Positions 9,988 to 42,594 of a stretch of 52,067 bases of DNA are shown in pieces. How positions within the stretch are numbered: the first letter of the stretch is position 1; the number at the start of each line of letters is the position of its first letter. Origin of the DNA: Actinomycetota bacterium (lineage in GTDB: Bacteria; Actinomycetota; Actinomycetes; Nanopelagicales; Nanopelagicaceae); assembly GCA_947489605.1 (NCBI GenBank), contig CANLEG010000002.1:1-52067 (forward strand), read 5' to 3'. Below the pieces are notes generated by a model. The model was not told the origin of the DNA, did no database searches, and saw only the letters and a program-made list of their open reading frames with translations. The position numbers were made by a program, and so were the translations under genes.

Positions 9988-11084
9988 TGTATCGAGTGTT
10001 ATTAGTTGGTGGAGGAACTGCAGGCCATGTTGAACCCGCGCTTTCCGTCGCTAACTGGCTATTAGCCAATAGCGAAGATGTCACTTGTGAGTTTGTTGGC
10101 ACTAAAAGCGGGATAGAGATGGATTTAGTTCCTGCAGCTGGATTGAAACTACATTTAATTCTAAAGGCGCCAATTCCTCGCAGCTTTAGTTTGAGTTCAC
10201 TTCTCTGGCCATTTACTTTTATCACTGCAGTGTTACAAGCTAGACGCATAGTTTCTAGCGCAGATTTGGTAATTGGTTTCGGGGGATATGTAAGCGCACC
10301 TTGTTACCTAGCAGCACGATTTAGTGGCGTTCCACTTCTCATTCATGAAGCAAATGCAATTCCAGGTTGGGCGAATAGATTGGGCGCAAAGTTTTCAGAT
10401 GAAGTGTTGACTGCCTTCTCAAGTACTTCGAAATTGAATCCAAACTGGAGCTCAGCGAAGATGGTAGGAATGCCAATTCGTGACGAAATTTTTGCAATCT
10501 CTAACTTGAGTAAATCAGATCGTTCTGCCAAATGGGATGCGACCTATCGGGAACTTGGCCTTGATCGCAGCAAGCGAACCATTTTGTTTTTCGGCGGTTC
10601 CCAAGGCGCTAAATCTATGAATGCTGCTTTGGCAGAAGCCCTACCTGAACTTTTGAAGCGTGACTTCAATGTGATTCATAGTCTTGGTAAAGGCAATCAA
10701 TTACCGAATTCGTTGTCGGGTTATGCGCCACTGGCCTATATATCTAACATGTCAGATATGTATGTTGCTAGCGATTTGGTTATAGCAAGAGGCGGCGCGG
10801 TAACTTGCGCAGAATTAGATGCCGCAAACTCGTATGCCTTAATCGTTCCGTTACCTATTGGAAATGGGGAACAGGTTGCTAATGCTGCAGATTTAATTGA
10901 GAAAGGTGCGGCAAGAATCTGTCTGAACTCAGAGTTCACAGCCGACTGGTTAATTTCAAATATTGATTCACTCGCCCTAGCGGCCGACCAATGGAACCTA
11001 AAGCGTAGCCAAACAAGTAGCGTTCCCGCTGCTGAGGTAATCGGGAAGATGATCCTAAAACAATTGTCTAGAATTAAAAGATGA
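9987..11084 (+). CDS. murG: UDP-GlcNAc:lipid I N-acetylglucosaminyltransferase
   Basis: MurG is the peripheral membrane GT-B glycosyltransferase that turns lipid I into lipid II. The N-terminal GGGTAGHVEPAL motif (residues 7-18) binds the lipid substrate side, and FFGGSQGAKSMN with ARGGAVTCAEL form the UDP-GlcNAc binding region. Length 365 is normal. The acceptor-side variant HVEPAL replaces the more usual HIxPAL. It starts in the ftsW stop (TAATG) and overlaps murC by four bases. Confidence 0.96.
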   Translation: MYRVLLVGGGTAGHVEPALSVANWLLANSEDVTCEFVGTKSGIEMDLVPAAGLKLHLILKAPIPRSFSLSSLLWPFTFITAVLQARRIVSSADLVIGFGGYVSAPCYLAARFSGVPLLIHEANAIPGWANRLGAKFSDEVLTAFSSTSKLNPNWSSAKMVGMPIRDEIFAISNLSKSDRSAKWDATYRELGLDRSKRTILFFGGSQGAKSMNAALAEALPELLKRDFNVIHSLGKGNQLPNSLSGYAPLAYISNMSDMYVASDLVIARGGAVTCAELDAANSYALIVPLPIGNGEQVANAADLIEKGAARICLNSEFTADWLISNIDSLALAADQWNLKRSQTSSVPAAEVIGKMILKQLSRIKR

Positions 11085-40447: not shown

Positions 40448-41890
40448 ATGCGTAAAGCAAAAATTGTTTGCACCATGGGGCCAGCAGTTGAGGCACCTGG
40501 GAAGGTCGAGCAATTAATTGCTGCCGGCATGAATATGGCCCGACTCAATTTGTCTCACGGTGGCTATCCGGAACATCAAGCAAGACTCGATGCAGTTAGA
40601 GCTGCAGCAACTAAAGCAGGTGTTGCAGTAGCAGTGCTTGTCGATTTGCAAGGCCCGAAGATTCGCCTTTCAAGATTTGAAAATGGACCACATGATCTGG
40701 GCCGCGGAGATATCTTCACAATTACAACTGACGAAGTTGCGGGCACGAAGGATCGAGTTGGCACCACATATAAAGGTTTACCAGGGGATTGCAAACCGGG
40801 AGATCGAATTCTTATCGACGACGGAAAGGTTACCGTCGAAGTTGTTGAAGTAAAGGGAAATGATGTTGTTACGAAGTGCATTGAGCCAGGTGCTGTCAGT
40901 AACAATAAAGGTATAAATCTTCCTGGAGTAGCGGTTTCAGTTCCAGCGCTTTCAGAGAAGGATAAAGAAGATTTACGTTGGGGCTTGCGCGCAGGTGCAG
41001 ATTTCATAGCGCTCTCTTTTGTCCGTAGCGCTAAAGATATTGAAGATGTGCATCTGATAATGAAAGAAGAAGGTATACACCGTCCAGTTATTGCAAAGAT
41101 TGAGAAGCCACAAGCCGTCGATAACCTGGTGGAAATTATCGCTGCTTTCGATGGCATCATGGTTGCGCGTGGCGACTTGGGTGTTGAAATGCCGATCGAG
41201 GAAGTTCCACTAGTGCAGAAGCGATGCGTAATGCTTTCTCGTGAGGCCGCAAAGCCGGTAATTGTTGCAACTCAGATGTTGGATTCAATGATTTCAAGTT
41301 CCAGGCCAACGCGAGCAGAAGCGACTGATTGCGCGAACGCAGTTCTAGATGGCGCAGATGCTCTGATGCTCTCTGGCGAAACAAGTATTGGTGAATTCGC
41401 AATTGAAGCTGTAACAACAATGGCGCGAATTATTGAACGAACCGAAGAGGTAATGCTTGACCGTATTCCGGCGCTACAACACGATCCCAAAACTAAGGGC
41501 GGCGCAATTACAAAAGCTGCAACAGAGGTTGGGGCAATTATTGGTGCGAAATATTTAGTGGCATTTACTCAAAGCGGAGATTCTGCACGACGAATGTCCA
41601 GACTCCGTTCTCCGATAAACATCATGGCTTTAACGCCGATGCCCGAGGTCTTTAATCAATTAGCACTTTCTTGGGGCGTCGAACCAAAAATAACTCAGAT
41701 GGTTTCTCATACCGACGAGATGGTGGCTCAAGTCGACCGAATATTGATTGATTCCCATCGTGTTGAAAAGGGCGACAGTGTCATCATTGTTGCGGGCTCA
41801 CCGCCAGGAATTCCGGGTTCTACCAATGCAATGCGCGTTCACCGTGTGGGAGACGCCGTCGAAGGAATTGCTCCGGCATATCGCAAGTAG
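40448..41890 (+). CDS. pyk: Pyruvate kinase
   Basis: Pyruvate kinase converts phosphoenolpyruvate and ADP to pyruvate and ATP. The 480-residue protein has KIVCTMGPA at the start, MNMARLNLSHG, the metal- and substrate-binding IAKIEKPQAVDN, MVARGDLGVEMP and the signature region near ATQMLDSMI. The C-terminal allosteric domain is complete. ATG 40448 follows AGGAAG at a slightly long spacing. The gene ends just before a tRNA promoter. Confidence 0.97.
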   Translation: MRKAKIVCTMGPAVEAPGKVEQLIAAGMNMARLNLSHGGYPEHQARLDAVRAAATKAGVAVAVLVDLQGPKIRLSRFENGPHDLGRGDIFTITTDEVAGTKDRVGTTYKGLPGDCKPGDRILIDDGKVTVEVVEVKGNDVVTKCIEPGAVSNNKGINLPGVAVSVPALSEKDKEDLRWGLRAGADFIALSFVRSAKDIEDVHLIMKEEGIHRPVIAKIEKPQAVDNLVEIIAAFDGIMVARGDLGVEMPIEEVPLVQKRCVMLSREAAKPVIVATQMLDSMISSSRPTRAEATDCANAVLDGADALMLSGETSIGEFAIEAVTTMARIIERTEEVMLDRIPALQHDPKTKGGAITKAATEVGAIIGAKYLVAFTQSGDSARRMSRLRSPINIMALTPMPEVFNQLALSWGVEPKITQMVSHTDEMVAQVDRILIDSHRVEKGDSVIIVAGSPPGIPGSTNAMRVHRVGDAVEGIAPAYRK

Positions 41891-41932: not shown

Positions 41933-42005
41933 GCCTCGGTACTCCAACGGTAGAGAGGGCGGACTCAAAATCCGCACAGTGTCGGTTCAAATCCGACTCG
42001 AGGCA
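41933..42005 (+). tRNA. tRNA with anticodon CAA (Leu by codon), class I variable loop
   Basis: All four arms fold. The acceptor GCCTCGG (41933-41939) pairs with TCGAGGC (41998-42004) with one G-U pair. The D-arm uses CTC/GAG with GG in the loop. The anticodon stem GCGGA/TCCGC encloses CTCAAAA, so positions 34-36 are CAA (41966-41968). The T-arm GTCGG-TTCAAAT-CCGAC is canonical. The discriminator is A42005 and CCA is not encoded. CAA reads UUG leucine, and A73 fits LeuRS, but the variable loop is only 5 nt (ACAGT) whereas bacterial tRNA-Leu normally has a long variable arm. The spacer before the anticodon stem is also atypical. Confidence 0.88.
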
Positions 42006-42006
42006 C

Positions 42007-42594
42007 ATGAGTGAGAAACCAACCGCGCGAATTTTAGTTGCGGAAGATGAAGCGTTGATTCGCCTTGACCTTGTTGAAATGCTTACCGAAGCTGGTTACG
42101 AAGTTGTTGCTCAAGCTACAAATGGTGTCGAAGCAATTGCGCTAGCAAAAGAATTCAAACCCGATCTTGCAATTCTCGATGTGAAAATGCCGGAGCTCGA
42201 CGGAATTTCGGCAGCCCAAGAAATTATTGAAATCTCTCCGGTCTTGATGCTCACCGCATTTAGCCAGAAAGAATTAGTAGAGCGCGCACGAGATGCAGGT
42301 GTAATGGCATACGTAGTTAAACCATTTAGCATTAATGATTTAACGCCAGCAATCGAAATTGCAATGAGCAGGCATCTACAAATGCGTTCCCTGAAAGAAG
42401 AAGTCGCAGACCTACACGAGCGCCTTGAGACCCGGAAAATTATCGACCGCGCCAAGGGCATCTTGATGAAGGCCATGAATCTAAGTGAGCCTGAAGCTTT
42501 TGGCTGGATTCAGCGGGCGGCCATGGACCGCAGGATAAGCATGAAGGCAGTGGCCGAAGCCGTGATTTCCCCAGAGTCAGCTCTCGACCGTTGA
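42007..42594 (+). CDS. pdtaR: PdtaR-like response regulator with ANTAR RNA-binding domain
   Basis: The 195-residue protein has a receiver domain (acidic pair EDE near residue 14, phospho-Asp in LAILDVKMP, conserved Lys in VVKPF) and a C-terminal ANTAR domain with a coiled-coil (LKEEVADLHERLETRKIIDRAKGILM) and the three-helix AxxxxxAW-like end. ANTAR proteins bind paired hairpins in nascent RNA and stop termination. In mycobacteria PdtaR is phosphorylated by PdtaS; no kinase is in this window. The ATG lies one base after the tRNA 3' end, with no Shine-Dalgarno available. Confidence 0.94.
   Translation: MSEKPTARILVAEDEALIRLDLVEMLTEAGYEVVAQATNGVEAIALAKEFKPDLAILDVKMPELDGISAAQEIIEISPVLMLTAFSQKELVERARDAGVMAYVVKPFSINDLTPAIEIAMSRHLQMRSLKEEVADLHERLETRKIIDRAKGILMKAMNLSEPEAFGWIQRAAMDRRISMKAVAEAVISPESALDR

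Follow-up and report, generated by a model that had tools for sequence, protein, structure and literature searches.

Class I tRNA-Leu(CAA) upstream of pdtaR in Nanopelagicaceae and the short-variable-loop leucine tRNAs of Actinomycetota

The leucine tRNAs of bacteria are described in textbooks as having a long extra arm. The 52,067-nt stretch of the Nanopelagicaceae contig CANLEG010000002.1 analyzed here (the window) contains one tRNA gene, 41933-42005 on the forward strand, which is intact, 73 nt long, and combines the leucine anticodon CAA with a class I body, that is, with a short variable loop. This raises the question of whether the molecule is a leucine tRNA, a tRNA of another identity, or something other than a translational tRNA. 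The molecule is a real and functional tRNA-Leu(CAA) that is ordinary within Actinobacteria; with its class I body, it represents a widespread variant of tRNA-Leu that falls outside the textbook rule, and we infer that it is charged with leucine.

The gene and the short-loop tRNA-Leu family

ARAGORN identified the gene as tRNA-Leu (caa) with a span of 41933-42006, and the Rfam model RF00005 matches 41933-42005 over the full length (55.7 bits, E 2e-9). The features of the tRNA are as follows:

41933..42005, + strand: tRNA-Leu(CAA), class I (short variable loop), CCA not encoded (ARAGORN, Rfam; 86.9 bits with the R1 model described below)
41942..41957, + strand: leucine-type D arm with the 3-bp stem CUC/GAG, no 13-22 pair, A14 A15, G18 G19, and A20a
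41966..41968, + strand: anticodon CAA, which reads UUG (ARAGORN)
41976..41980, + strand: 5-nt variable loop ACAGU (consensus NCAGU), with U48 pairing with A15
42005..42005, + strand: discriminator base A73, invariant in alignment A1

When the sequence is read directly, the 7-bp acceptor stem GCCUCGG/UCGAGGC is followed by U8 and A9, and the 3-bp D-stem CUC/GAG with the D-loop CAACGGUAGA is followed by G26. The anticodon stem GCGGA/UCCGC has five perfect base pairs and carries the loop CUCAAAA, and the T arm GUCGG-UUCAAAU-CCGAC has a 5-bp stem. The earlier note on this DNA, made without database searches, had described a tRNA of class I shape that has a leucine anticodon and A73, and this description is correct: the variable loop of the 73-nt tRNA is ACAGU, and the long structured variable arm that defines class II is absent. 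The same note considered the 3-bp D-stem weak and mentioned extra bases before the anticodon stem. Both features are present; however, they are not a defect but the normal leucine D-arm, since every class II tRNA-Leu examined shares this layout. Allo-tRNAs have 8/4 or 9/3 acceptor branches, i.e., acceptor and T stems other than 7/5, whereas these stems in the window tRNA are 7 and 5 bp long and fully paired.

In a search of 40 relatives, the tRNA–pdtaR segment was found in 20 more genomes from the same genus. The 73-nt tRNA is identical in all 20, and the aligned segment of tRNA and pdtaR as a whole is 73-86% identical. Three named assemblies have the identical tRNA: two 'actinobacterium' metagenome-assembled genomes (MAGs; L054 and L067) and one MAG of Candidatus Nanopelagicales (L074). 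Close relatives of the tRNA occur throughout Nanopelagicales. In alignment A1, which comprises 31 diverse class I leucine tRNAs with the window sequence included, 98.5% of the cells are paired, and the covariation score of the cloverleaf is 0.64 vs. 0.17 in shuffles; the D-stem pairs, in the register 10-12/23-25, are seen as GC, CG, UA, and AU. The identity of the tRNA in 20 genus-mates and the covariation of the cloverleaf over 31 relatives show that it is not a chance structure. A pseudogene was also rejected: the earlier note had mentioned pseudogenization in relatives, but the tRNA sequence is frozen among them, and the gene is not decaying.

A pattern describing a short-loop tRNA-Leu with the UAA or CAA anticodon was searched for in bacteria and archaea, each species being represented by one genome. 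The matches listed belong almost entirely to Actinomycetota (Mycobacterium, Nocardia, Rhodococcus, Streptomyces, Corynebacterium, Bifidobacterium, Micromonospora, and other genera), with the addition of one Rokubacteria MAG. At least about 100 distinct sequences share the layout, with a loop of 5 nt (once 6), A73, and a YAA anticodon. Since CAGTGT is itself part of the pattern, the constancy of the loop among the loci that it retrieved is partly circular; the loop does vary in the family, being UCUGGU in L198 and CAAGU or AUAGU elsewhere. The window tRNA has all the family traits: a CAGU loop of 4-6 nt, the 3-bp D-stem, A14A15/U48, A73, and a YAA anticodon.

The covariance model R1 was built from the 31 sequences of A1. 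Class I leucine tRNAs score 85-96 bits with it; no other tRNA in the control set, whether class II tRNA-Leu or another isotype, exceeds 52 bits. The 86.9 bits of the window tRNA are a score by construction, its sequence being in the model; L198, which is outside the training set, scores 85.2 bits. Only matches of at least 72 bits were counted, and those below about 70 bits were considered unsafe, since the matches of 61-66 bits that were read in the Methylomirabilota genomes described below turned out to be tRNA-Met and tRNA-Lys; six of 108 Actinomycetota genomes were dropped in this way. Of the 298 Actinomycetota genomes, 102 reach this cutoff, and this is a lower bound, because 16 candidates were scored per genome. 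Each of the 14 near-complete genomes examined from the family to which the window belongs has exactly two R1 tRNAs of at least 82 bits, one with UAA and one with CAA, and the next-best score in them is at most 58 bits. The exact pattern misses many genomes of this family, yet R1 finds both tRNAs in 14 of the 14 examined, so that a missing pattern match does not mean absence.

The short-variable-loop tRNA-Leu(UUR) family is widespread in Actinomycetota: the extra arm is absent, and the leucine core is kept. Many genomes of the phylum, including those of mycobacteria and Streptomyces, have class I tRNA-Leu for UUA and/or UUG beside class II tRNA-Leu for CUN codons. The class of tRNA-Leu(CAA) varies in the phylum. 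In genome G034, the CAA tRNA has a long arm and lies beside pdtaR on the opposite strand (L041, 956-1039); its UAA tRNA is the class I L198 with the unusual UCUGGU loop and is located away from pdtaR. In Methylomirabilota, the phylum of the Rokubacteria MAG, class I Leu(UAA) was found in 5 of 60 genomes, and in four of these five it comes after tRNA-Gly and tRNA-Cys. The Gly-Cys-Leu(UAA) order can be seen in L480 (384-670, the Rokubacteria MAG), L477, L478, and L481. Genome G475 of this group has, in addition, a second Gly-Cys-like cluster, which ends in a weak 36-bit tRNA match at C245:29079.

Individual genes of this kind have long been annotated as tRNA-Leu. It is the pattern over the phylum of which we did not find an explicit description in the open-access papers searched, subscription journals being outside the search.

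Leucine identity and charging

A review of tRNA identity published in 2023 ascribes a long variable arm to cytosolic tRNA-Leu (PMC9976931). According to the same source, A73, A15-U48, G18G19, and A20a are the essential leucine determinants in E. coli, the sequence and folding of the long arm do not correlate with leucylation, and armless variants stay active (PMC9976931). The window tRNA has the full E. coli set, which is invariant in A1. In the tRNA sets of genomes G000 and G009, the absence of a 13-22 pair together with A15-U48 and A73 is found only in leucine tRNAs, of both classes, and class II Leu(UAG) and class I Leu(UAA) have the D-loop string AAUGGCAGA in common.

A class I body with a leucine anticodon could also belong to a tRNA of another identity, and there is a human precedent, CAA-5-1, in which the same combination arose in a tRNA-Met. 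However, the human tRNA is a recent, very poorly expressed mutant (PMC8450103) unrelated to the window tRNA. The closest tRNA of the genus is class I Leu(UAA), with a core edit distance of 12, compared with at least 16 for other isotypes; the D arm is common to leucine tRNAs only, and the short form is kept over a phylum. We consider a different identity very improbable. The particular version of it in which the tRNA is derived from tRNA-Met, as in the human case, was rejected, the core edit distance to Met tRNAs being 18-24.

The codons read by this tRNA behave as leucine codons. In 20 open reading frames (ORFs) of the window, UUG makes up 19.8 per 1000 codons and 20% of leucine codons, and UUA and UUG together account for 44% of the latter. 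When the UUG codons of the window's DnaE gene were compared with 14 orthologues from other families, the aligned residue was leucine in 67% of 308 comparisons, the respective values for CUN codons being 61-79%. At all ten UUG positions where the consensus reaches 80% or more, the residue is leucine, mostly encoded by CUG and CUC in the 14 outgroup orthologues. Recoding of UUG was rejected on these grounds, and the suggestion of the earlier note that the tRNA decodes UUG is supported.

Each of 19 complete or near-complete genomes yielded one leucyl-tRNA synthetase (LeuRS); second matches are pieces of the same frame. The enzyme is of the normal bacterial type and has an editing domain and an anticodon-binding domain. 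LeuRS contacts the elbow of the tRNA (PMC4810234). Since the long arm is no determinant in E. coli, the enzyme would charge the short-armed tRNA through A73 and the elbow formed by the D- and T-loops. The unusual charging, relaxed identity, or non-translational role that the earlier note had envisaged find no support here: UUG behaves as a leucine codon, one LeuRS was found per genome, and the E. coli determinants are present.

Several points weigh against this interpretation. LeuRS was not found in the window's own assembly, which is 58.6% complete. UUG might also be read by the UAA tRNA via wobble. The leucine determinants come from E. coli and not from Actinobacteria, and charging by LeuRS is deduced from codons, identity elements, and the enzyme. 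With these points taken into account, the window tRNA is almost certainly a functional UUG-decoding tRNA-Leu that is charged with leucine by the single ordinary LeuRS of the cell.

The leucine tRNAs of G009, a 99% complete genome of the same genus, agree with this assignment. Its tRNA matches of at least 80 nt, as listed, are Leu(UAG), Leu(GAG), Ser(GGA), Ser(UGA), Ser(GCU), and two Tyr. A long-arm UUR-leucine tRNA, including the second class II tRNA-Leu(CAA) for which the earlier note had proposed to search, was not found among the matches listed, from which a very weak match could be missing. Among the matches listed, the UUR-leucine tRNAs of this genome are class I UAA and class I CAA only.

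The junction with pdtaR

The neighbors of the tRNA are the following genes:

42007..42594, + strand: pdtaR, response regulator with an ANTAR domain, whose ATG starts 1 nt after A73
40448..41890, + strand: pyruvate kinase, upstream neighbor of the tRNA

The junction A73-C-(A/G)UG is the same in 49 of 49 distinct family loci with pdtaR directly downstream of the tRNA, despite the length of the PdtaR N-terminus before the ILVAEDE motif varying from 4 to 30 residues. The 1-nt gap leaves no room for a separate leader; therefore, maturation of the tRNA 3' end should leave a leaderless pdtaR mRNA. In Streptomyces, mRNAs of this kind are common (PMC4681348). An alternative is the GAGG of the acceptor strand, which is 3 nt away from the start codon of pdtaR and could serve as a ribosome-binding signal on the unprocessed transcript; however, the distance is shorter than usual, and the bases are paired in the tRNA.

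The fixed junction with the gene of an ANTAR regulator could also indicate that the tRNA is regulatory or otherwise non-translational, acting as an aminoacyl donor or as a sensor linked to pdtaR. Such a role in place of decoding is very unlikely: UUG is a common codon in the window, the matches listed for the 99% complete genus-mate include no second CAA tRNA, and other families have the same tRNA hundreds of bases from pdtaR, the motif of which begins 334-752 nt downstream. A second role besides decoding is another matter, and the tRNA may have one. We give an even chance to the proposal that in Nanopelagicales the tRNA is also the 5' processing signal of pdtaR, its 3' cleavage freeing a leaderless mRNA (5'-C-AUG or -GUG) and coupling the supply of the UUG-reading tRNA-Leu to the ANTAR regulator, against the background of phylum-wide class I UUR-leucine tRNAs served by one LeuRS.

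Comparison with known leucine tRNAs

Similar leucine tRNAs are carried by phages of Actinobacteria, cyanobacteria, lactobacilli, and Ochrobactrum, and those that were read have the short loop. The phage tRNA-Leu(UAA/CAA/UAG), for example, those of Synechococcus phage S-CREM1, Streptomyces phage Alone3, and Ochrobactrum phage OC, have the same short-loop leucine layout as the window tRNA but are phage-borne, and the UAG anticodon is also present among them. CUN-reading short-loop Leu(UAG) was seen in L046 (Streptomyces phage Alone3, 410-484) and in the viral contigs L331 and L300, so the short form in phages is not limited to UUR. The tRNA array of L300, which also holds class I leucine tRNAs, includes a tRNA with a CTA anticodon at 10157 ('Pyl' according to ARAGORN). 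Phages of M. smegmatis that integrate at the tRNA-Leu-CAA gene rebuild the gene or bring their own copy (PMC10865867), which counts in favor of a functional tRNA. The abundance of short-loop tRNA-Leu in phages and the cluster-borne short-loop Leu(TAG) noted as an exception in a mycobacterial comparison (PMC6582537) might suggest a spare tRNA of phage or island origin, dispensable to the host, but the probability of this is negligible, as the gene is a single chromosomal copy, identical and fixed in its place throughout the genus, and no class II counterpart was found in G009 among the matches listed.

In M. tuberculosis, Leu-2, -3, and -5 were especially named as long-looped (PMC11541572). By implication, the other leucine tRNAs of M. 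tuberculosis, which are not discussed there, would be short-looped like the window tRNA.

A class I tRNA-Leu is a trap for isotype classifiers, and in mycobacteria the family bears on LeuRS inhibitors and tRNA-targeting toxins. The family can also be regarded as a natural experiment, in agreement with the finding from E. coli that leucylation does not require the arm.

The canonical class II leucine tRNAs of the window's own genome (UAG in L011 and GAG in L015) have the same D-arm layout, A15-U48, and A73 and would be charged by the same LeuRS, whereas their variable arm is 13-15 nt long, compared with 5 nt in the window tRNA. The short-loop Leu(CAA) and Leu(UAA) of Mycobacterium asiaticum (L077), Streptomyces (L117), and Corynebacterium (L073) share with it the NCAGU loop, the 3-bp D-stem, A15-U48, and A73 but differ in the sequences of the acceptor and anticodon stems. 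Unlike the copies in these other Actinomycetota, most of the short-loop tRNA copies of Nanopelagicales abut pdtaR directly.
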